A stretch of DNA of 23,412 nucleotides from a virus: positions 1 to 23,412 of the IMG/VR virus record IMGVR_UViG_3300042300_000923; one strand, given 5' to 3'. Shown here in pieces: positions 2,474-22,810 of the stretch (position 1 is the stretch's first letter; each line of letters starts with the position of its first letter). The position numbers were made by a program, and so were the translations under genes. Under the pieces are notes generated by a model. The model made no database searches. It saw only the letters and a program-made list of their open reading frames with translations, and had not been told where the DNA came from.

Positions 2474-3532
2474 ATGAGCACTGAAAATTACGAAAAATTG
2501 GAAAAATCCATAAATAATATGAAAGAAAAACTTTCAAGAATTTATTTTGTGGTTCAAGACACTAAAGGAAACGCAAAAGCGTCTGTTAGATACATTTATC
2601 AAATGGCACTAACATTAAAAAGAGGTGGATATAATTCTATCATTTTACACGAAAAACCCGAATACTTTGGTGTTTCTTCTTGGTTAGGTGAAGAGTATAT
2701 GTCAGAATTAGAACATAGAGCGATCGAAGGAACAAGTTTAGAAATTTCACCTGACGATTTAATTATCATTCCTGAAATCTACGGATTTGTAATGGATCAA
2801 ATTACAAAACTACCATGTGGTAAAATTGTATTATCACAAGCCTTCGACCATATTTTTGAAACTTTACAACCAGGTCAATCATGGTCTCAGTTAGGGTTTT
2901 ACAAGTGTATTACAACATCAAATAAACAAAAAGAATTAATCGAATCGGTAATGAGAAATGTTTCAGTGGATGTTGTTGAACCATACATCTCTGAATGTTT
3001 TGAAAGAAATCCATTCCCACCAAAAACTGTAATTAATATTCACACAAGAGACCAAAGAGACACCGCAAATCTTATCAAAACTTTTTATGTTAAATTTCCA
3101 CAATATAGATGGATTAGTTTTAGAGATTTAAGAGGTTTGTCAGAAAAAGAATTTAGCCAAGGAATGAAAGATAGCTTCATTTCAATTTGGATCGATCAAA
3201 CAAGTTCGTTCGGGACATTTCCACTTGAATCTATGAAAATGGGAATTCCTGTGTTAGGATTGGTTCCAGATGTAATTCCTTCTTGGATGAATGAAGATAA
3301 TGGTCTATGGATAAACAACAAAACTATAATTGTTGATGTATTGGCTGACTATATCCAAAATTGGTTAGAGGATAATTTAAATCCTGAACTTTTTGAAAGA
3401 ATGGAACAAACTATCAATTCAATTTCAACAAAAGAACAATTTGAAACTAACACTTTAAACCTATTTAATGAACTATTCGAAAAAAGATTACAATCTTTCG
3501 AAGATCAACTTTCTAAATTTGAAACAATATAA
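2474..3532 (+). CDS. GT-B-fold glycosyltransferase-like protein
   Basis: This 352-residue protein has a GT-B layout. An N-terminal Rossmann-like half begins RIYFVVQD at about residue 22, with a basic region and ALTLKRGGYNSIILHE. In the C-terminal half, SSFGTFPLESMKMGIPVLGL (about residues 241-260) corresponds to the GT4-type E-x7-E nucleotide-sugar-binding motif (compare EGFGLPPLEAMASGTPV). Such enzymes move a sugar from an activated donor to a lipid, protein, glycan or modified base. The acceptor is unknown. It sits directly upstream of a GT-A-like gene and downstream of sugar-activation genes, arguing for a joint role in glycosylation. The start lies 6 bases after the previous stop, without a Shine-Dalgarno. 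Confidence 0.7.
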   Translation: MSTENYEKLEKSINNMKEKLSRIYFVVQDTKGNAKASVRYIYQMALTLKRGGYNSIILHEKPEYFGVSSWLGEEYMSELEHRAIEGTSLEISPDDLIIIPEIYGFVMDQITKLPCGKIVLSQAFDHIFETLQPGQSWSQLGFYKCITTSNKQKELIESVMRNVSVDVVEPYISECFERNPFPPKTVINIHTRDQRDTANLIKTFYVKFPQYRWISFRDLRGLSEKEFSQGMKDSFISIWIDQTSSFGTFPLESMKMGIPVLGLVPDVIPSWMNEDNGLWINNKTIIVDVLADYIQNWLEDNLNPELFERMEQTINSISTKEQFETNTLNLFNELFEKRLQSFEDQLSKFETI

Positions 3533-3534
3533 TT

Positions 3535-4341
3535 ATGACAACAAAAAACCAAATATCAGTAATTCTTCCTATCAAAACAGGAAAAACTTTAGCCTTCACA
3601 GACTTTTTTGAAAAATGCATTCAGTCTGTAAGATACCAAGACGAATATTTAAAAGAATTAATTATCGTCCATGGAAATGAAGATTATTTGAACTCGTATT
3701 TGTATGAGTATGATTTCAGTGGTCTGACCGTGACCTTAGAACCATGGACAAGTAAACCCAACTTTTCAAAACAAGTAAACCATGGGGTTAGTATCGCAAA
3801 CTCTAATTGGTGTTCAATTTTAGAATTTGACGACGAATATTCAAACATTTGGTTCAAAAATGTTTCTAAATATATTGATATTTATAATGATGTAGATGCT
3901 TTTCTACCTATTGTTGTAGATGTTGATGATAAGTTAGTTTTTGCGGGTTTTACAAATGAAGCGACTTTTGCTGCGAATGTCTCATCAGAGATGGGTATTT
4001 TAACAAATGAAACTTTGCAAGGATTTCAAAACTTTCAAATTTCGGGTATGGTATTCAATAAAGAAAAGTATCAAGAAGTTGGTGGTTTGAAATCAAATAT
4101 GAAGTTGACTTTTGGTTATGAACTATTTTTAAGATTGACATATAACTCGGCAAAAATTATGACAATCCCTAAAATAGGTTATAAACATACAAATTTGAGA
4201 GAGGGGTCGATCTTTTGGAACTATAAAAATGGTGAAAACAAAATAACTCAAGATGAGGCTAAATTTTGGATTGATTCGGCTAAAAAAGAATATTTCTACA
4301 CCAGCGAAAGAGAAATAAAATATGAACCCCAAGAAGTTTGA
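3535..4341 (+). CDS. GT-A-fold glycosyltransferase-like protein (GT2 type)
   Basis: The N terminus ISVILPIKTGKTLAFTDFFEKCIQSV is the beginning of a GT2-like nucleotide-sugar domain. The segment NHGVSIANSNWCSILEFDDE ends in Asp99-Asp100-Glu101, in the position of the metal-binding DxD-type motif. Further on, ISGMVFNKEKYQEVGGLK (about residues 169-186) resembles the GT2 region that follows the acceptor site. The length of 268 residues fits one catalytic domain without membrane segments. It begins 2 bases after the GT-B gene and its stop overlaps the sigma-factor ATG (TGATG). Donor and acceptor are unknown; DNA-base, virion-protein or host-surface glycosylation are all possible. Confidence 0.72.
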   Translation: MTTKNQISVILPIKTGKTLAFTDFFEKCIQSVRYQDEYLKELIIVHGNEDYLNSYLYEYDFSGLTVTLEPWTSKPNFSKQVNHGVSIANSNWCSILEFDDEYSNIWFKNVSKYIDIYNDVDAFLPIVVDVDDKLVFAGFTNEATFAANVSSEMGILTNETLQGFQNFQISGMVFNKEKYQEVGGLKSNMKLTFGYELFLRLTYNSAKIMTIPKIGYKHTNLREGSIFWNYKNGENKITQDEAKFWIDSAKKEYFYTSEREIKYEPQEV

Positions 4342-5081
4342 TGTTAGAAAATGAAACTGAGTTATTAGCAGAAAAGAAAAAGAAAGGAAGAAAACCTAAG
4401 TTAAATAACTATTTTGATGAACGTGAGGAGACCGCTGTCAAACTTTTTTTGATAGCGGAAACCTTTGAAGAAAAAAATAAGATTTATAATGAGTTTTTAA
4501 GACATCCTTTAGATAAGATGATTTCTTCTATAATTAGAAGATATAAGTTGTATAGAAAAGATATGAATTATGAAGAAGTTCATGTTGATACACATTCCTT
4601 TTTGATGACCAAAATTGACAAATTTAAACCATCAAAAGAAAAAAAGGCTTATTCATATTTTGGAACAATTTGTAAGAATTATTTGATGGGTCAAATCATG
4701 AAAGACCAAAAAGAAATTAATAGAAAAATTTCTTATGAAGACATTTCTTCTGACTTATGCAATCGTCCTGAAATGTCTTACTTAATTGATAAAGATGAAA
4801 TTAGTTCAGAATATATTATAAAAAAGTTTTTAGAAAAACTTAGATTTGATTTAGAACAAGATGAACTTGATGAACAAGAAAAAAAATTAGGTTCGGCAAT
4901 TCACGATTTATTCGAAAACTACGGGACAATTTTTCCTGACACAAATAATAATAAATTCAATAAAAATATAATTCTTTTTGAACTTAGGGAAATGACTAAT
5001 TTATCTACAAAAGAAATAAGAAACTCTATTAAAAAATACAAAAAAATGTATTACGAGTTAGTCCAAGAATTACTAAAATAA
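4341..5081 (+). CDS. 55: T4 gp55-like late sigma factor
   Basis: The 246-residue product has a sigma region 2-like core at about residues 54-123: LRHPLDKMISSIIRRYKLYR, then a Tyr/Glu-rich helix, then FKPSKEKKAYSYFGTICKNY and LMGQIMKDQ. This matches late sigma factors of T4-like phages, which bind host RNA polymerase core and read a short -10-type late promoter without a -35 element. I chose ATG 4341 rather than the in-frame TTG at 4338, because the ATG gives a one-base overlap with the upstream stop. A Lys-rich stretch (EKKKKGRKPK, 11-20) precedes the core, and the C-terminal third is helical and charged. A T4-like system would also need gp33 and the sliding clamp, not recognised here. The candidate late promoters listed below are its likely targets. 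Confidence 0.8.
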   Translation: MLENETELLAEKKKKGRKPKLNNYFDEREETAVKLFLIAETFEEKNKIYNEFLRHPLDKMISSIIRRYKLYRKDMNYEEVHVDTHSFLMTKIDKFKPSKEKKAYSYFGTICKNYLMGQIMKDQKEINRKISYEDISSDLCNRPEMSYLIDKDEISSEYIIKKFLEKLRFDLEQDELDEQEKKLGSAIHDLFENYGTIFPDTNNNKFNKNIILFELREMTNLSTKEIRNSIKKYKKMYYELVQELLK

Positions 5082-11542: not shown

Positions 11543-11557
11543 TTAGTTAAATCCAAT

Positions 11558-11588
11558 TTGTCTTATTAAATTTTCTTTCCTATATTTG
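11558..11588 (+). promoter_or_regulatory. Bacteroidota-type promoter for the 11614 gene
   Basis: TTG at 11558-11560 is separated by 20 bases from TATATTTG at 11581-11588. This is a full match to the Bacteroidota housekeeping promoter (TTG, 19-21 bases, TAnnTTTG). Transcription would begin about 5-7 bases further on, leaving a leader of roughly 20 bases. It is the clearest host-type promoter in the window, together with that of bS21. Confidence 0.8.
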
Positions 11589-11613: not shown

Positions 11614-12048
11614 ATGAAAAAAGCGTTTTTAAGATTTTACAAAAGATTCAAAGTATATTTAGGAAAACTCAACCGTAGTTCCGCAATGAAAACTCATGAG
11701 GAAGTAGAACTACACGAAAAAACCGCCTTTAAAATTTGTGTTAAAGTTATATCTCACAAAGATTCGGATTTTATGATTGCACCTATGTCTAACAAAAGAT
11801 ATATTCTTAATGAGACACTAAATCTTTTCATTATAATTGACTATGGTAGAGTAGAAATAACAAACCACGTATTTCACTATGATGTGAAACTTACAGGTAG
11901 AGATTTTGACAGGGTCATTTATTTATACGATAATGAAACCGAAAGAAGAAGAAGTAATGCTGAAATGGAAGTCAAAGGAAATATAAAAAATTCTTTACAA
12001 AAAGTTTTAGAAAAGATTGAACAAAAAATTAATTCTAATCCGAGTTAG
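11614..12048 (+). CDS. Unknown protein under a host-type promoter
   Basis: The 144-residue product begins with a strongly basic, aromatic segment (MKKAFLRFYKRFKVYLGKL). It continues with a mixed alpha/beta region (YILNETLNLFIIIDYGRVEI and YDVKLTGRDFDRVIYLYD) and ends in a charged helix with a heptad-like repeat (LQKVLEKIEQKI). No family is recognised. Unlike the virion genes next to it, it has its own Bacteroidota-type promoter and a 70-base intergenic leader region, which suggests expression by unmodified host RNA polymerase, perhaps early. It ends convergently with the minus-strand gene at 12045, the two stops sharing the four bases TTAG. Confidence 0.65.
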   Translation: MKKAFLRFYKRFKVYLGKLNRSSAMKTHEEVELHEKTAFKICVKVISHKDSDFMIAPMSNKRYILNETLNLFIIIDYGRVEITNHVFHYDVKLTGRDFDRVIYLYDNETERRRSNAEMEVKGNIKNSLQKVLEKIEQKINSNPS

Positions 12049-13344: not shown

Positions 13345-15276
13345 TTATCTCAATTCTCTTAAATCGAATGATCTAACACCATCCACGGTAATTCTTCCGT
13401 AAAAGCGATTATTTACCATCTTCTTCGCGTATCTTGTCATAATACCTTTGATAGGCGTGAAGTTGAATGGGTTATACATTGTAGGTGTCAATTGTAGAGG
13501 AACATACGGTGCGTAAATGTAACCTGTGTCTAACAATGAAGTTCCTTTGTGCCCAATCAAAACTTGGTTTGGTGGGAAGTAAGGATCACGATAAACTTGG
13601 TAACGACCAGATAGAGTTCCAACTCTTTCGATACCCATGTTGTATTGGTCTTGCTCAGGAGCCGCGTTAGATACGTGGAAGTATTCTAAATCGTCAAAGA
13701 TAGCAGAAACCTCAGAAGATACAACAATCCAGTTAGCTCCACCTCTCAAAGTAGATTTGTGGATTTGTGCTGACAATTGGTTGATTGCTGTGATCAAAGT
13801 TTGGTTCCAGTCTTTCTGAGTGTAAGATGTTGTTTGAGAAATTCTTCTCCATCCGTTGTAGTCCCAACGTAATTGCCAAGCCGCTCCTTTTCTCAAGTCA
13901 CGTAGAATTTCACGGTCGATCTCAGCCGCTATTTGTTCTGACAACAATGCTGTCAATTCAGCTTCAGCGTCGATGTTGTGGAATGCCGCAACGTCTTGAG
14001 CCAATTCAGGTGACCATTGAGCTCTTAGTTTTCTTTCAGTTACAGATACAGTTACTGACTGTAAATCAAAAGAAACCTCACCAATTTGATCTTCAAATTC
14101 TAAGTCAGCATATCTTCTATACCAAGCCATGAATGAAGTTCCAGAAGTTCCTGAATAGATAGTTGTTCCTGTGTAACCGTCAAGTGATGTAGAATCACAA
14201 TCAGCACATACAGGACAAGAAAGGTCTACTTCAAGATAAATACAACCATCAGCATCACAAATATCATAATAGTTTGATCCGTTTCCTGTTGGTGGGTTGT
14301 AAGCTGGTGAACCAGGGTTATCACCCGCATTTCTAAATTGTGTGTTTTGGTTGTTACCATACTTAACAATTCCTTTACCGTAGATTTGTGTTACAACTCT
14401 AAATAATAGAGGAACAAATACAGACTGTCCGTTGAAAGTTCCCCTAAGAACGTTACAAGGTGTAGTATCTGCAGAAATAACTGAAGTTCCGTAGATTCTT
14501 AAGTCAGACAAGAAAGCTTCTGTATCCATTTCGTTACCATCAGGTCCGATAAGTTTTCCAGCTCCTGAGTTAGCAAAACCACAAAGTTTCATGATAACTT
14601 TTCTTGTGTTTCCTGAGTAAGAGTTAAGTGAAGTATCTACTAAGTATCCACCTACCCAATGCTGAACAACGGTGTTTGCAGTTACTGCAGTCCACTTACC
14701 TTTAGAGTAGTCAAATAATCCTGGAGGATCTAAAGACGCTTCATTTCCTTCGTAGAACAAGTCATAAAGGTTTTTAGCGTAAGGATAACCACCAGCAGTT
14801 GCGTCATAACCTACGTTAGGGTTAGTTGGTCCGTTTGGTGCCCCTACAGGTGCAAAGTGCTCACCACCTGCATTTCCGTTATTGTCAGGTGTAGAGTTAG
14901 GATACAAGTTTGCAAATGTTGAACTTGCGTTTTCATATCCTTGGATTTTAGGCACAAAGTAGAACAATTTACCGATTGGTAAGTTCATAGCTTGCACTGA
15001 TACGATGTCATTAGCCAATAATTTAGAGAATACACGTCTTACGATTGGGAAAACAACTGTTTCAAATGCTCCGTTAGAAGTTCCATCTGAAGATGCTTCG
15101 TTAATCAAGAAAGATGCTTGGTTCTCATACAATTGAGCTACGTTTTCTTTAAGGTGACCTCTTAGACCGTCAAGAAAGCCTAATTTGTCCCATTTGTTAA
15201 TTGTGTCTTCTTTGATAACTTTAAGGTGCTTAAGACCGATGTTACCAACAAGACCTGATTCTAATAATGCTCCCAT
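13345..15276 (-). CDS. 23: Major capsid protein, T4 gp23-like, with large insertion
   Basis: Clear gp23 hallmarks are present: FPIVRRVFSKLLANDIVSVQ (residues 76-95), RKLRAQWSPELAQDVAAFHN (415-434), the following DAEAELTALLSEQIAAEIDR, and the C-terminal IYAPYVPLQLTPTMYNPFNF. An N-terminal pro-segment ends FLINE before Ala61, a good gp21 cleavage site (I-N-E) comparable to Glu65 in T4. The protein is 643 residues against 521 in T4. Much of the excess lies at about residues 115-390, which is Gly/Pro/Asn-rich and holds a Cys cluster (340, 345, 354, 357, 360). The coding sequence is visibly less AT-rich than its neighbours, as expected for the most abundant virion protein. It follows the scaffold gene by 32 bases and probably shares its transcript. 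Confidence 0.95.
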   Translation of the reverse strand: MGALLESGLVGNIGLKHLKVIKEDTINKWDKLGFLDGLRGHLKENVAQLYENQASFLINEASSDGTSNGAFETVVFPIVRRVFSKLLANDIVSVQAMNLPIGKLFYFVPKIQGYENASSTFANLYPNSTPDNNGNAGGEHFAPVGAPNGPTNPNVGYDATAGGYPYAKNLYDLFYEGNEASLDPPGLFDYSKGKWTAVTANTVVQHWVGGYLVDTSLNSYSGNTRKVIMKLCGFANSGAGKLIGPDGNEMDTEAFLSDLRIYGTSVISADTTPCNVLRGTFNGQSVFVPLLFRVVTQIYGKGIVKYGNNQNTQFRNAGDNPGSPAYNPPTGNGSNYYDICDADGCIYLEVDLSCPVCADCDSTSLDGYTGTTIYSGTSGTSFMAWYRRYADLEFEDQIGEVSFDLQSVTVSVTERKLRAQWSPELAQDVAAFHNIDAEAELTALLSEQIAAEIDREILRDLRKGAAWQLRWDYNGWRRISQTTSYTQKDWNQTLITAINQLSAQIHKSTLRGGANWIVVSSEVSAIFDDLEYFHVSNAAPEQDQYNMGIERVGTLSGRYQVYRDPYFPPNQVLIGHKGTSLLDTGYIYAPYVPLQLTPTMYNPFNFTPIKGIMTRYAKKMVNNRFYGRITVDGVRSFDLRELR

Positions 15277-17873: not shown

Positions 17874-18551
17874 CTATTTAAATTTCCATTTATATCCTCC
17901 CGCACTTCGTCTTTGGTTATTACAAACCATCCTAATTGTGTTTCGGTTAATTAATAAATATTCAGATACTTCTTTTAATGACTTCCATTCAGCAACAAAT
18001 TCACCATCTATTGTAAGTTGAATAACTGGTTTATATTTAGACTCAACACAAAATAATGATTGTTTTTTACCAAACATAGGATTTTTACCCCCTGTTCTAC
18101 TTTTAGATAGTTTTTTTCTACCTTCTTCTGTTAATTTTCTTTTTTTCGCCGATTCCGACATCAATTTAATAGTTTCATCAGAAAATTTTCTATTTTTTAA
18201 TTTCTCGGATATTTTTCTATTTGATTCAGGGCCATAATTACCCCCATCACCACCGTTAGTTAAATTATATAAATTAAATCCCCACGATTTAAATAACCCA
18301 ATCCAATATTTTTCCCAAAATGACCATTCTGAAAACGGAATAACATCTAATATTTCTAAAATTGGTTTTTTATCTATCGAAATTAATTTTTTAATCCAAT
18401 TATTTTTTTTTGTAATAGTATGTTTGTGTTTTCTTATATGTTCAATATACCTTTTAGGTGGGTTATCCGATTTACCAATATATTTAATACTAAAGTTTAT
18501 AGGATCTTTCAAGCAATATATATAACTAATAATTGTTGATTGATCATTCAT
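17874..18551 (-). CDS. GIY-YIG homing endonuclease with NUMOD domains
   Basis: This 225-residue protein has a GIY-YIG nuclease domain at the N terminus. Tyr10-Ile-Tyr12 and Tyr24-Ile-Gly26 are the signature, Arg34 follows at the expected catalytic spacing, and Glu80 lies in FWEKYWIGLF. Next come NUMOD3-like DNA-binding segments (about residues 105-165, including KISEKLKNRKFSDETIKLMS and a GKNPMFGK turn). Last is a NUMOD1-like helix-turn-helix (about 172-225, with KSLKEVSEYLLINRNTIRMV and ending GGYKWKFK). It is a free-standing homing endonuclease, as found scattered in T4-like phages, that spreads by cutting related genomes lacking it, probably near gp21. It has its own candidate late promoter. 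No intron boundary is evident because adjacent genes are intact. Confidence 0.92.
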   Translation of the reverse strand: MNDQSTIISYIYCLKDPINFSIKYIGKSDNPPKRYIEHIRKHKHTITKKNNWIKKLISIDKKPILEILDVIPFSEWSFWEKYWIGLFKSWGFNLYNLTNGGDGGNYGPESNRKISEKLKNRKFSDETIKLMSESAKKRKLTEEGRKKLSKSRTGGKNPMFGKKQSLFCVESKYKPVIQLTIDGEFVAEWKSLKEVSEYLLINRNTIRMVCNNQRRSAGGYKWKFK

Positions 18552-18568
18552 ATTGACATGTATTTTTA

Positions 18569-18579
18569 TATATAAATAC
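18569..18579 (-). promoter_or_regulatory. Candidate late promoter before the GIY-YIG gene
   Basis: Minus-strand GTATTTATATA, followed by TAAAAATA, lies 17 bases before the ATG at 18551 and overlaps the stop of the upstream gene. The following TATAAAAA is shared with the site before 9189. Confidence 0.45.
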
Positions 18580-19046
18580 TAAAGAGTTTCAGTTTCTTTT
18601 TTAAGGGGTTTTAGATTTCCGTTTTTAGTTAGATAAAATTTGAAATATTTGTTTTTATTCATCACGTCTGAATATATACATTTAACCAAATTTTTTACAA
18701 GTTTTTTAAGTTTTGGTGATTTGAAATCAATTTCTTCTATTAAGAATAGATTCATTTCTAAGTTTAAAAATGATTTCTTTTTTGTTTGTAGACCACTTGT
18801 TCTCAGATCAAAATCTACAATAAATTTTGTGTCAAAAAATTCTTTGTTTATATTTTCTAAAATTGTGTGTTTAACCGACCTTGTCATGTTTAAAATTATT
18901 CGGTTCCAATTTTCGAATTCATCTTTTGGTTCTACCCAAGTTTGAATATTAATAAAGATTGATTTTAAGTTTGTGGAATCAATCGTTCCAAATTGTGATT
19001 TAAAGGATTTATATCCAACCAATTTTACGGTCTTCCCTTTTTTCAT
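18579..19046 (-). CDS. Unknown protein between gp20 and gp21
   Basis: The 155-residue basic product has no recognised motif. It contains alternating strand/helix sequence (GKTVKLVGYKSFKSQFGTID, a Trp-containing FENWNRIILNMTRSV, and FDTKFIVDFDLRTSG) and a Lys-rich C terminus. By position it falls where T4 has 67/68 (prohead core proteins), but its composition gives no support for scaffold function. It is divergent from the bS21 gene, with about 77 bases between starts. I see no full host-type or late promoter facing it in that gap, so its transcription start is uncertain. Confidence 0.6.
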   Translation of the reverse strand: MKKGKTVKLVGYKSFKSQFGTIDSTNLKSIFINIQTWVEPKDEFENWNRIILNMTRSVKHTILENINKEFFDTKFIVDFDLRTSGLQTKKKSFLNLEMNLFLIEEIDFKSPKLKKLVKNLVKCIYSDVMNKNKYFKFYLTKNGNLKPLKKETETL

Positions 19047-19075
19047 AAAAATTTTTCATATTTGTGTTGTTTATT

Positions 19076-19105
19076 TTGTTAAATTATAAACAAATATTAT
19101 ATTTG
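19076..19105 (+). promoter_or_regulatory. Bacteroidota-type promoter for phage bS21
   Basis: TTG at 19076-19078, 19 bases, then TATATTTG at 19098-19105: a full match to the Bacteroidota housekeeping promoter. The predicted transcript has a leader of about 14 bases with no Shine-Dalgarno before the ATG at 19124. The same TATATTTG octamer is used upstream of the 11614 gene. Confidence 0.8.
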
Positions 19106-19123
19106 AATCAAATATTTAATTGT

Positions 19124-19309
19124 ATGTTGAAAGTTGAGGTAAAAAAAGGAAATGTTGAAAAGTCAATTAAAGACTTAAAATCAAAGGTAAATAAGACGAA
19201 ACAAAATCTGATTCTTTTTGAAAGGAAAGAATTTGTAAAAAAATCTATAAAAAAAAGATTAAAATTAAAACGGGCAATTTTTAATCAAAAATTAAAGACC
19301 TTCGTTTAA
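19124..19309 (+). CDS. rpsU: Ribosomal protein bS21, phage-encoded
   Basis: The 61-residue, strongly basic product matches bS21 along its whole length: MLKVEVKKGNVEKSIKDLKS, then KVNKTKQNLILFERKEFVKK, then SIKKRLKLKRAIFNQ. The pattern agrees with 'kxGenIexALkrlKrKv.ktg...elreRkxFxKPSvkkr'. Phe53 in RAIFNQ stands where flavobacterial bS21 has a Tyr (KAAYIQ), a residue I recall as contacting the 3' end of 16S rRNA. I chose ATG 19124 over an upstream in-frame GTG at 19064, because the promoter -7 element lies between them and family homology begins here. It is the only plus-strand gene within the head cassette; its last 18 bases overlap the end of the convergent 19292 gene. Ribosomal proteins, chiefly bS21, are known in some phages. 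Confidence 0.88.
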   Translation: MLKVEVKKGNVEKSIKDLKSKVNKTKQNLILFERKEFVKKSIKKRLKLKRAIFNQKLKTFV

Positions 19310-20005
19310 ATTTTTTAATTTGTAATAATTAAGTTCTGAAAAAGATTCTGTTTGAATTTTACTTAACACTTGATCGATCGTGTTTATAGTTTCTTTATCT
19401 GTTTCATTTTGTTTTTTGTTCGATAATTTTTCTAAAACTATTTTTTTCTCTTTGTTATAGTTTTCTATCAAAGTTTCTTTTGGCGTTGATAACAAAACCT
19501 TCAATTCTTTTCTTTCATTTTCATTTAAAGAAGATAAAAAACTATCAATTGTTTTATTTGCAACATTCACCATAGATTTTAAAGGAACATTGATTATTTC
19601 TTTTTGGGTTTGTCCTTTTGATTTTAGACTTTCCAAGATTACTTTTTTACTTTTAATTTTGTTTTCTAAAGTTAGGACGTTCTTTGAGAAAAGATCATCA
19701 ATATTTTTGTATTTGTTTTCACATTTAACATGACCAACCCAAGCTTTTATTTCTCTAATTTGTGTTGGTGTTACTTTGTTAATTAAATTTTCGTATGCCG
19801 TTATTGATTCAAAAATAAATTCGTTGGCTAATGACTCAGACAAACCCTTTGGTTGTTGTAGTTCATCATATAAATAAAATATTTTGGAAATATTTTTGTT
19901 TTTAAGGACTAATTCCTCAAAGACAAATAAATTATCTTTTAAATTATTTTTTTTATAAGATTCCGTTAAATATTTTTCTATTTTTGATTTTAATTCCCCA
20001 ATCAT
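19292..20005 (-). CDS. Possible prohead core protein (position of T4 67/68) with targeting/cleavage motif
   Basis: The 237-residue product is almost all charged helix (Lys, Glu, Asn, Leu), as scaffolding proteins often are. The N terminus MIGELKSKIEKYLTESYK ends a short helix in LTE before Ser16, a prohead-protease-type site. Further L/I-x-E sequences occur inside (for example VILESL, TLIENY). It follows the portal gene in the place of the T4 prohead core genes 67 and 68, and has its own candidate late promoter. No sequence family is recognised, so the core-protein call rests on position, composition and motif. It converges with the bS21 gene with an 18-base overlap. Confidence 0.55.
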   Translation of the reverse strand: MIGELKSKIEKYLTESYKKNNLKDNLFVFEELVLKNKNISKIFYLYDELQQPKGLSESLANEFIFESITAYENLINKVTPTQIREIKAWVGHVKCENKYKNIDDLFSKNVLTLENKIKSKKVILESLKSKGQTQKEIINVPLKSMVNVANKTIDSFLSSLNENERKELKVLLSTPKETLIENYNKEKKIVLEKLSNKKQNETDKETINTIDQVLSKIQTESFSELNYYKLKNLNEGL

Positions 20006-20019
20006 AATTTCTTTTTGTT

Positions 20020-20030
20020 ATATAAATATC
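20020..20030 (-). promoter_or_regulatory. Candidate late promoter before the 19292-20005 gene
   Basis: Minus-strand GATATTTATAT, followed by AACAAAAAGA, ends 14 bases before the ATG at 20005 in the 36-base gap after the portal stop. It matches the other copies in order and spacing. Confidence 0.5.
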
Positions 20031-20041
20031 TAATAAAAAAA

Positions 20042-22810
20042 TTAATCACCTAAAAGTTTTGATAATTCATCGGTTACCTCACCTAAAGTGTTATTAACTT
20101 TTTGAAAATCTAAAAATTCGTCTTCATCAAAATCATCAATTTCTGATTCTAATATGAGTTTGTTTTTATCCTTTCTTATTGATTCAGGAATTGGGGGTGC
20201 TCCTCCTTCTTCTCCTCCCGCTGGTGGTGGAGGTGGTGCTCCTCCTTCTCCTCCCGCTGGTGGAGCGGCAGCTCCTCCTGCAGATGCAGTTCCTCCAGTT
20301 ACGGTTTTGTATAATCTATCAACCGTATCAAAAATACCTGTTTTTGTAATAATAGTTGCCGTATTATCAAGTTCAGCGGCAACTGCTCGTTCCATTCTGA
20401 TTTGGTTAAGTTCGACTTTGATTTCATCATCAGAAAAACCAAAAATATGTTTTTTCGCCCATGTTGCTGAAGTAGGCTGAATTGATTTAGCAATTTCAGA
20501 CACCATATCTTTATATAATATCACCTTTTCTTTCCAAACGTCAATCATTAATAAATCTGCTTGTTTAGATGGGTTTGTAAGTTGTAACGTAAAGTTTGAT
20601 AACTCATCCTCAAATCCCATAAGAAATAAGTGAATGATTGCAATTTTATTCATCTCAGCAATTGCCGATTTTTGAATTCTATTGATTGTTCTTGCAAAAC
20701 GAATATCCAATAGTGATAAGTTTTTACCATCACCTACAGGTTCCTCAAAACCTAAATACGCTTTAGGAATACGAAGTGCTGTAACCAATTTCTTTTGGAT
20801 ATACTCAATATCTGCGATTTCTGAAAGGTTAGTTGCTCCCGGTAATGTCTCAATTGGACTTGCTTGAGCGGCGTCTCTTACAGGAATAAAATAATCTTGA
20901 TCCACTGCCATTTGGTTAAATCTTAAATCCACATTTCCTGTTTTTCTATCAACAATTTGATCTCTTTTAAATTTGTTTGCAACTCTTTGAACATATGGCT
21001 CAACATCTTTGTCATCCATGTTACCAACGAAAACTTTGAAAACTCTCCTTTCGGGTGCTCTTGATGTTCTATAGATTAACATCGCATCTTCAGACAATAC
21101 TAATTGTTTCCAAATACGACGAGCCTTTTCTAACATTGATGTTCCATAAGGAAGTTTTCTATCATCACCCAACAATCTAAAGTGGGCAACCTCCCAAGTA
21201 TTAAATTCGGCTTCCCTTGCTTTCCACGCAAATTTCAAGGCCTTTCTATTAACATTAATTGTCGCGTTATATGTTCTTGAATCAATACCTCTTTCTAATC
21301 TTTCGATTTCGATGTTTGGTAATTGAAGGCATCCTGTAACCCCTTTTTCAGGGTCTAATTTCAGATAAACAAAATTATCACCATATTTACACATGTTTCT
21401 AATCCACATCGGTAAATTAGTGTTTATGTCTAATGTATTAACAAATAAATCAACTAAAATACTTTTGATTCTTTTTGATTCAGAATATACTTGTAAAATA
21501 TAACCATTTTGATCTGGGGTAGTTGATTCTTCAGCGTATATGTCAAGTGCGGTTGAGATTTCGGGAGTGTTATGTGAAAAAATTGAGTCTGTAGCAAAAT
21601 TTTTATATCCAGGAACAGTCAAATCATAAACAGGCACAACACCATGAGGTTCAATTGATACTATTTTATGGTTTAAGTTAATTATATCTTTTTTTGCTTT
21701 AGCTGTTGAGTATGGTGATTTCTGTATTCCGTATGCGGTTAAAAAAGTTCCCCAATCTTGATATCCATTTGAAACGATTTCTCTTTGTAACTTTCGGTAA
21801 GATACATTTAATTGTTTAGCGGTTCCCTTCAAGGTTTTTATTTTTCTTGCAGTTTCAATAATGTTATCCCAACCTATTTTTATGTAAGCTGGATTTTTAT
21901 CACCACTTCGTCTTCCACCCCAAACTAATTTACCCTTTCTTTTTGCGACTTCAGACATTTTGTTTCTATAATCAGGATTAGACCATAATTTTTCGTTATT
22001 TAGTCTTGCATGATATGCTCTGTGTTCAGATATCTTCATTATTTGTAGGTTTTCAGGTAAATTATTTTTACCATCAAAATCAATATGATGCACTTCCTCG
22101 TCTTCGTTTACTTTAACATCATAAAACCATTCAGCAACTAAATTGTGTTCTGAAACCCAACCATTATGACCCTCTACAGAATTACAAGTGTAAACCCAAT
22201 TATATTTCTTGTTATTATAAAAAGATTTACGATAAAATGGCATCATTGAATCTCCAGGCTTTAAATTCATAACCCGTTCAAATGAACCATCTCTTTTCAT
22301 AAATTGGTGTTCCCATGTTGCAATAATATGACTACCGTCATCAAACGTGACTTTATATGTCATTTCATCTCTAGTATAATGGGCGTTTCTAGCTACTGCG
22401 GGAACTACTTTTTTAAGGTTATGATCATATGCATAAGTAATAAATTCATAATCCCTACCTTTTTCCGATAACTCTTTAATTGTGATAAAACCGTTCGGGG
22501 TTGCAATTTTAGTATCTCCCGCCAAACAATATTCCATTGATTCGTAATCGTAAAACGCCGCCAATCTTGTTGGTTCATAATAAACCGCTTGGGTATATAA
22601 ATTGTTTTCAACTTTCGCCCAATTGGTGCTTAGATATAAAGATTGTTGATTTTGGAGTTTTGCCCTTTCATACTCAGCTTTATCTTGAGTTTTTAAAATT
22701 TCTTTTTTATCTAGTTTGTAGTCTGGTCTTCCTTGACCTAAGGTGCTATCAGGACCAAAAGTCTTGGAAAGTTTTTGCCAAACTGTTAGATTTTGATTGT
22801 TATTTTCCAT
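20042..22810 (-). CDS. 20: Portal vertex protein, T4 gp20-like, interrupted by an intein
   Basis: The 922-residue reading frame is a portal protein of about 602 residues split by a 320-residue intein (95-414). The join MEY + TPEISTALDIYAEESTTPD restores the conserved gp20 'PEVxxALDIxxDE' segment. Later portal hallmarks include MWIRNMCKYGDNFVYLKLDP, RAPERRVFKVFVGNMDD, the DLRFNQMAVDQDYFIPVRD region with GATNLSEIADIEYIQKKL, and ALRIPKAYLGFEE. The C-terminal tail has a Gly/Pro/Ala low-complexity linker and then an acidic end. The dodecameric portal starts head assembly and is the DNA channel. Correct splicing is needed for function. A candidate late promoter lies 20 bases upstream of the start. 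Confidence 0.93.
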   Translation of the reverse strand: MENNNQNLTVWQKLSKTFGPDSTLGQGRPDYKLDKKEILKTQDKAEYERAKLQNQQSLYLSTNWAKVENNLYTQAVYYEPTRLAAFYDYESMEYCLAGDTKIATPNGFITIKELSEKGRDYEFITYAYDHNLKKVVPAVARNAHYTRDEMTYKVTFDDGSHIIATWEHQFMKRDGSFERVMNLKPGDSMMPFYRKSFYNNKKYNWVYTCNSVEGHNGWVSEHNLVAEWFYDVKVNEDEEVHHIDFDGKNNLPENLQIMKISEHRAYHARLNNEKLWSNPDYRNKMSEVAKRKGKLVWGGRRSGDKNPAYIKIGWDNIIETARKIKTLKGTAKQLNVSYRKLQREIVSNGYQDWGTFLTAYGIQKSPYSTAKAKKDIINLNHKIVSIEPHGVVPVYDLTVPGYKNFATDSIFSHNTPEISTALDIYAEESTTPDQNGYILQVYSESKRIKSILVDLFVNTLDINTNLPMWIRNMCKYGDNFVYLKLDPEKGVTGCLQLPNIEIERLERGIDSRTYNATINVNRKALKFAWKAREAEFNTWEVAHFRLLGDDRKLPYGTSMLEKARRIWKQLVLSEDAMLIYRTSRAPERRVFKVFVGNMDDKDVEPYVQRVANKFKRDQIVDRKTGNVDLRFNQMAVDQDYFIPVRDAAQASPIETLPGATNLSEIADIEYIQKKLVTALRIPKAYLGFEEPVGDGKNLSLLDIRFARTINRIQKSAIAEMNKIAIIHLFLMGFEDELSNFTLQLTNPSKQADLLMIDVWKEKVILYKDMVSEIAKSIQPTSATWAKKHIFGFSDDEIKVELNQIRMERAVAAELDNTATIITKTGIFDTVDRLYKTVTGGTASAGGAAAPPAGGEGGAPPPPPAGGEEGGAPPIPESIRKDKNKLILESEIDDFDEDEFLDFQKVNNTLGEVTDELSKLLGD
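20192..20297 (-). repeat. GC-rich Gly/Pro/Ala low-complexity segment of the portal tail
   Basis: This stretch encodes GGAAAPPAGGEGGAPPPPPA-type sequence and contains direct repeats: GGTGCTCCTCCTTCT at 20196 and 20235, and TCTCCTCCCGCTGGTGG at 20211 and 20247. It is far more GC-rich than its surroundings. The encoded linker is likely disordered and variable in length among relatives. Confidence 0.85.
21569..22528 (-). mobile_element. Intein with HNH homing endonuclease in gp20
   Basis: The intein begins at Cys95 (CLAGDTKIATPNGFITIKEL, block A). Block B has Thr165-x-x-His168 in HIIATWEHQF. An HNH endonuclease sits at about residues 220-270 (VHHIDFDGKNNLPENLQIMK, His241/His242). After a linker come block F, VPVYDLTVPGYKNFATDSIF, and block G, SHN, with terminal Asn414. 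The +1 extein residue is Thr415. All residues required for standard splicing (Cys1, TxxH, terminal His-Asn, Thr+1) are present. The site is the most conserved part of the portal, typical for inteins. I see no damage to the frame, so it looks active both for splicing and possibly homing. Confidence 0.93.

Follow-up and report, generated by a model that had tools for sequence, protein, structure and literature searches.

The window, that is, the whole stretch of DNA analysed here (a virus fragment of 23,412 bases with a GC content of 31.5%), carries a gene that, judged by its sequence, is a phage-encoded bS21 of the kind reported from Bacteroidetes-infecting myoviruses, and the leader of this gene lacks the extended Shine-Dalgarno (SD) sequence found in all the Flavobacterium-type rpsU leaders compared. 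The reading that we favour, with a slight lean in its direction, is that the phage protein replaces or tops up the bS21 of the host and that its SD-less mRNA would escape the control loop of the host. The gene is the following:

19124..19309, plus strand: bS21 (rpsU-like) gene, ATG to TAA, 61 aa, with Phe53 as the aromatic residue at the anti-SD-contact position.

The minus-strand neighbours of this gene include the portal, the prohead protease and the Gp23 capsid protein of a T4-like head cassette, so that the 61-residue bS21 lies on the plus strand and opposite to the head genes, as an earlier note on this DNA had described. Its two immediate neighbours are conserved:

18579..19046, minus strand: divergent conserved neighbour of 155 aa (MKKGK...), 77 nt from bS21.
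19292..20005, minus strand: convergent conserved neighbour of 237 aa, overlapping the 3' end of bS21 by 18 bp.

This arrangement has a published counterpart. Chen et al. (2022, PMC9723584) reported bS21 genes that lie within the head region of Bacteroidetes-infecting myoviruses and are encoded on the other strand, together with an aromatic position 54, late expression, likely Bacteroidetes hosts and the idea of ribosome substitution. Their phages and the window are alike in that bS21 lies opposite to the head genes, between two conserved hypothetical genes and near the portal, protease and MCP genes, as well as in the aromatic position 54 and in GC content (~31-34% against that of the window). 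The window bS21 therefore joins an already known group, and its 155-aa neighbour very likely corresponds to one of the two conserved hypothetical genes that flank bS21 in that study, perhaps the one denoted bS21_CN. The main text of Chen et al. (2022) makes no mention of a promoter, of autoregulation or of a ribosome binding site; what is added here is the SD contrast, a late motif, a GTCAAAA box and a promoter difference in the clade of the window.

The conservation of the divergent neighbour extends well beyond the window, as an ORF of more than 100 codons starting 40-140 bp upstream of bS21 was found in 171 of the 181 viral loci examined, and 81 of 82 distinct divergent-neighbour proteins begin with MKKGK. 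The AlphaFold model of the 155-aa protein (mean pLDDT 86.9) shows a beta-alpha-beta-beta-alpha-beta order after two short strands. A bS6-like identity was considered for it and rejected: no Foldseek match had an E of 0.001 or lower, and the maximum VIA-align Z, 7.5, lies within the range usual for models that match nothing clearly. The absence of bS6 from the 50 rows listed by Foldseek and by VIA-align for this model proves nothing either way, and the Pfam matches of the protein are scattered and weak. The 237-aa neighbour is predicted to be all-helical. In the phages of Chen et al. (2022) the large terminase gene is nearby; no terminase was found among the scanned window proteins, and the window ends beyond the portal.

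Some further observations concern the same region. The T4-like portal gene (20042-22810, minus strand, 922 codons) is split by an intein with an HNH endonuclease domain, and the longer ORFs at the portal site in L008, L038 and L039 suggest inteins there too, many relatives having ~600 codons. A GIY-YIG homing endonuclease with NUMOD motifs (17874-18551, minus strand) lies between the 155-aa gene and the prohead protease; it is present in L003 as well, and the other clades compared do not show it at this site. The cultured Flavobacterium phage immuto (MW353176) resembles the window in its T4-like portal, protease and capsid genes, which occur in the same order. Searches of the phage collection gave no bS21 match in immuto, and in its 19.6-kb stretch the 155-aa neighbour has no match and the 237-aa neighbour a weak one only (best E 0.22).

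The assignment to bS21 comes from several searches. The window ORF matches Pfam Ribosomal_S21 (PF01165) at E 1.8e-5 and 24.8 bits over positions 1-50 of 55, slightly below the curated cut-off of 27 bits, and TIGR00030 at E 0.0043, also below the cut-off; a PHROGs search returned no family. The top PDB chains found by phmmer are both bS21, namely 9i5v_9 (1.5e-4) and 7jil_z (3.9e-4), the latter belonging to the F. johnsoniae ribosome (7JIL; Chen et al. 2022, PMC9723584). A profile built from 14 relatives, 14/14 of which match Ribosomal_S21, reaches 1.1e-19 against 7jil_z. Profile searches thus return the family that the earlier note had named, below the cut-off for the single sequence and at this much lower E value for the profile.

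Relatives were drawn from a viral-contig protein search (88 relatives, the best 80 of 88 used), from a search with the 7jil bS21 (21 viral relatives) and from an alignment search (the best 80 of at least 493 used, 79 of them new locus ids). The viral set, with the window included, amounts to 181 loci in which some contigs recur; for the counts, loci with identical leader sequences were reduced to one. When the phage collection was searched, the window bS21 gave nothing and a group-C bS21 gave six uncultured records; four huge phages were fetched from these, and one of the two remaining matches shares its length and match position with LR756501. One locus listed as viral, L162, looks like a Bacteroidota chromosome, with bS21 beside a recombinase-like ORF and a neighbour that is presumably HPF. 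This locus was excluded from the tree and the promoter tally and is included in the 76 leaders and 85 proteins considered below.

The tree comprises 187 bS21s and 64 columns, and the program cautioned that the columns were few, that the bootstrap had not settled and that several branches were long. One side holds 82 phage bS21s and two from huge phages, and the other holds 101 host sequences (88 Bacteroidia and 13 Flavobacterium-type) and two from huge phages. The phage/host split is supported at 99/68, and the grouping of all 82 phage rows with one huge-phage row at 100/96. Together with L008 and L009, the window bS21 forms a group (100/99) that sits well within the phage side on a long branch, so that the phylogeny, which the earlier note had named as a check, places it among phage bS21s. 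When compared with L008, the gene has accumulated 13 synonymous and 4 non-synonymous changes (dN 0.028, dS 0.51), and it is thus under purifying selection.

The presence of an SD was assessed from the pairing of the 25 nt before the start with the 13-base 16S tail. The host loci were the best 80 of at least 547 relatives of the 7jil bS21, with titles mostly Flavobacterium, and yielded 60 distinct leaders of Flavobacterium-type rpsU, 60/60 of which fall between -21.6 and -18.4 kcal/mol. In contrast, 0/76 distinct viral leaders from the 181 loci examined reach -7 kcal/mol, the strongest standing at -5.1 (by set, 0/29, 0/8 and 0/47). The window leader, at -0.9 kcal/mol, has no extended SD, defined as pairing below -13 kcal/mol as in Flavobacteriales rpsU. 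The view that the phage bS21 lacks an SD was thus confirmed, and the comparison with the host rpsU leader that the earlier note had suggested separates the two sets completely. This note had also taken the host rpsU to be SD-dependent and self-regulating, which agrees both with these host leaders and with the work of McNutt et al. (2023, PMC9976891). These authors reported that F. johnsoniae rpsU has an extended SD and is autoregulated through it. In their work, ribosomes of this species without bS21, or with a bS21 shortened at its C terminus, showed faster initiation on rpsU and slower initiation on mRNA that has no SD, and rpsU rose 3-fold or more in the strains with depleted or shortened bS21. 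They also speculated on an exchange of bS21 by phages and its replenishment by the host, and the passages of their work on phage bS21 do not treat phage leaders. Among the titles and abstract openings listed from the open literature, no comparison of phage bS21 leaders with host SDs was found.

These observations could be integrated as follows. In the host loop, bS21-free ribosomes would be the good translators of rpsU. The phage bS21 would replace or supplement host bS21 on the 30S platform and keep the anti-SD tail hidden, and the ribosomes would thereby stay efficient on the SD-less messages of the phage. Since the phage bS21 mRNA has no SD, it would be translated by ordinary bS21-containing ribosomes and would not be throttled by the host loop, and translation of host rpsU would fall as phage bS21 accumulates. 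Every step past a bS21 gene without SD is what we infer.

The same gene might, however, have no regulatory meaning, the phage simply making more bS21 late and the missing SD mirroring its general SD-lessness, an account that we consider possible but on the whole rather improbable. Indeed, among the window genes predicted by a simple ORF finder, 0/23 carry an SD of -7 kcal/mol or stronger (3/23 in a mock region), as the earlier note had held for the messages of this phage; SD-lessness is thus the default for window genes, and the missing SD of bS21 does not have to be adaptive. That related genes are expressed late (Chen et al. 2022, PMC9723584) is equally in keeping with this account. Against it, the SD is kept in all the Flavobacterium-type rpsU leaders, and a bS21 gene lacking it would therefore be under a changed control in such hosts. 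This account and that of escape differ mainly in whether the escape was selected.

How widely escape could apply depends on the host. In a non-random sample of Bacteroidia (the 30 best-scoring and 60 picked among the matches listed, 276 of the 295 searched genomes having matched), 15/90 leaders carry an extended SD (-13 kcal/mol), in agreement with the lineage-specific occurrence of the extended rpsU SD reported by McNutt et al. (2023, PMC9976891). Escape from the SD-dependent autoregulation of the host is the best reading of the sequences, for a host that is itself deduced, and, the extended SD being lineage-specific, it holds only if this host is Flavobacteriales-like. As for the four huge phages fetched, one has an SD, LR756501 (-12.1 kcal/mol), and the others stand at -5.1, -2.4 and 1.6. 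In this 735-kb uncultured phage (L359, LR756501.1), and unlike in the family of the window, AGGAGG precedes the bS21 start at 3001; 4/67 genes called in the 49 kb around its bS21 also reach -12, and none does in the mock.

The residues of the protein bear on what it might do in the ribosome. Phe53 of the window aligns with Tyr54 of the 7jil bS21, the site at which bS21 stacks on the 16S tail, so that the host Tyr is replaced and the aromatic character kept, just as had been claimed. Position 54 is Tyr, His or Phe in 82/85 distinct proteins called viral (the cellular-looking L162 included), the other three being two truncated proteins and one with Arg. Phage and host agree in the C-terminal half at K40, S42, R46, A52, aromatic 54 and Q56, whereas residues 18-37 show a strong phage versus host difference, part of which was already described by Chen et al. 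(2022, PMC9723584). Lys or Arg occupies position 27 in 83/85 viral, 0/49 Flavobacterium-type and 3/89 other Bacteroidia proteins, and Gln occupies position 28 in 83/85, 0/49 and 0/89, respectively. The phage bS21 may therefore not be a plain substitute. These phage-specific residues, those at positions 27 and 28 among them, speak for the proposal of Chen et al. (2022) that phage bS21 makes a specialised ribosome, its divergent first helices shifting the choice of mRNA towards phage messages, and Francisella bS21-2 offers a reported precedent for leader-dependent selection. However, phage messages and most host messages are alike in being SD-less, and we regard such a shift as unlikely.

The pelagiphage HTVC008M is like the window in that its bS21 is encoded by a myovirus and unlike it in that the host belongs to a different phylum, for which no role of bS21 in hiding the anti-SD is known. 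Mizuno et al. (2019, PMC6375957) showed that this bS21 enters E. coli ribosomes, and that purified E. coli ribosomes carrying it are ~5% active. Such a value would fit a translation poison that lowers host protein synthesis and does not support that of the phage. We deem this quite improbable, considering that, according to the same authors, the foreign host may explain the ~5%, and that related bS21 genes are expressed along with the head genes, at a stage of high protein demand (Chen et al. 2022, PMC9723584). A non-ribosomal role, for instance as a basic RNA- or DNA-binding virion protein, would suit the conserved position in the head cassette and the virion packaging raised by Chen et al. 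(2022, PMC9723584), but it is very improbable given that the ribosome-binding C-terminal residues listed above are kept, which a new role would not need.

Escape from the host loop is thus favoured by the family membership, the tree, the purifying selection, the SD contrast and the aromatic position 54, as well as by the biochemistry of the host system (PMC9976891) and the entry of pelagiphage bS21 into E. coli ribosomes (PMC6375957). Weighing against it are the general lack of SDs in the window, the presence of an extended SD in a minority of the Bacteroidia leaders, the SD kept by LR756501, the divergence of residues 18-37 and the ~5% activity, which fits poisoning or incompatibility as well as it fits support (PMC6375957).

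The intergenic region ahead of bS21 contains the following features:

19075..19078, plus strand: -33 element, TTTG.
19098..19105, plus strand: -7 element TATATTTG, of the host TAnnTTTG type, 19 nt after TTTG.
19110..19123, plus strand: probable 5' leader of ~14 nt without SD, starting ~5 nt after the box.
19047..19114, no strand: identical intergenic block, 68/68 bases common to the window, L008 and L009, covering the promoter elements of both divergent genes.
19069..19076, minus strand: AAATAAAC motif upstream of the 155-aa gene, overlapping the -33 element of bS21.

The promoter-like pair TTTG-N19-TATATTTG is the putative promoter of the window bS21. Positions 19075-19105 match exactly the consensus of Bacteroidota housekeeping promoters (TTTG, 19-21 nt, TAnnTTTG), and TAnnTTTG is present in 60/60 distinct Flavobacterium-type rpsU leaders. 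The host box ends 29 nt before the ATG in 51/60 of these, and the F. johnsoniae rpsU leader is predicted to be 25 nt long; from both figures follows the estimate of ~14 nt for the window leader, which differs from its F. johnsoniae counterpart in this length and in the lack of an SD. The 68-base block is identical although 37% (L008) and 32% (L009) of the synonymous sites in bS21 differ from the window and although, of the nine bases at the end of the leader, four or five are variable. This conservation is not due to bS21 alone, because the promoter side of the divergent gene, where the AAATAAAC motif overlaps TTTG, falls within the block as well. Nor is the match significant by itself, as two-box matches number 3 in the window and 1.6 on average in shuffles (maximum 4). 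The host-type promoter claimed by the earlier note therefore stands as regards the exact match and the block shared with L008 and L009, that is, for the small clade of the window, and does not stand as a count above chance or beyond that clade, many other close relatives having a late motif and the sister group another box, as described below. A palindrome over the -7 box (19099-19115) was discarded, as palindromes of this kind number 6 in the window and 5.1 in shuffles, and one is present in 9.6% of intergenic regions after shuffling. A further TTTG-N-TATATTTG match lies at 11557-11588 (plus strand), ahead of a 144-aa gene at 11614.

The late motif, with the core TATTTAT, was seen as ATATTTAT in 61/212 distinct intergenic versus 1/61 operon-internal regions, the genes being those of a simple ORF finder, spurious ORFs included. 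Its matrix at 6 bits or more marks 68/163 non-redundant regions (which are also the training set), 4.7% of shuffles and 2/49 operon-internal regions. An example of the motif and a candidate for the factor that may read it are found in the window:

20019..20030, minus strand: late motif GATATTTATATA, ahead of the 237-aa gene.
4341..5081, plus strand: candidate gp55-like late sigma factor of 246 aa (PHROG late sigma family, PDB gp55).

The PHROG late sigma family is matched by 18/18 relatives of this candidate that were scanned (best 1.8e-4; 0.084 for the window member), and gp55 is its weak top PDB match (E 0.15). If the candidate is indeed such a sigma factor, TATTTAT would be a late promoter of the T4 type in phages of Bacteroidota. 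Phage immuto shares the motif before TerL (6.0 bits) and portal (10.7 bits), and not before its protease or capsid gene. In the window, the AAATAAAC motif stands ahead of the 155-aa gene and of the capsid gene (13345-15276, minus strand) instead of a well-placed late motif, and it is perhaps a second promoter class.

Three promoter states can be told apart at phage bS21 genes. In the distinct leaders from L010 to L032, L040 and L043, the box is TATATTTA, the phage late motif, at 8-11 bits. TTTG lies 19-20 nt ahead of the box in 16/32 distinct phage bS21 leaders with TATATTT[AG]; as a control, TTTG or TTG occurs at 18-21 nt in 23/99 late-motif sites of other genes. The TATATTTG box of the window, L008 and L009 scores -0.5 bits on the late-motif matrix, and no late promoter of the ATATTTAT type well above background was found at the window bS21, whose best nearby site (5.6 bits) lies directly against the ATG and has no counterpart in L008 and L009. 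In the sister group (L034 onward), a GATATTTG-type box lies so near the ATG that only 5-8 nt separate its end from the start codon, and GTCAAAA precedes this box, in most cases by 23-24 nt (range 20-24). The bS21 leader would then be ~1-4 nt long and the mRNA nearly leaderless. Among 75 distinct leaders (L162 excluded), 40 contain GTCAAAA, 34 of these 40 with a box within 12 nt of the ATG, and 12 have no recognisable box. GTCAAAA occurs once in 212 intergenic regions of other genes. In 12 viral records (~0.78 Mb), GTCAAAA...ATATTTG is found four times, in 4/12 records and always at bS21, so that within these records the pair is peculiar to bS21; across the phage collection, outside this count, it is found in many contigs among the matches listed. 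In the L164, L165, L055 and L066 leaders, GTCAAAA and a TTGAC or TGAC together make up an inverted repeat, a possible operator.

Considered together with the host loop, these promoter states suggest a further and more tentative idea, namely that the sign of bS21 control is reversed in the phage. Host rpsU would be made mainly when ribosomes lack bS21, a negative feedback via the SD, whereas the phage message, SD-less or nearly leaderless and with its own dedicated promoter elements, would be made best by bS21-replete ribosomes. Phage synthesis of bS21 might then sustain itself while host rpsU is shut off, a self-reinforcing lock that would keep the ribosomes SD-blind.

In Bacteroidota, it is known what bS21 does, namely hide the anti-SD, and how it is controlled, namely by a loop that acts through the SD in rpsU, and the phage may supply this protein outside the control of its host. 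The contrast between 60/60 host and 0/76 viral leaders makes the otherwise vague idea of hijacking testable in the existing F. johnsoniae system.
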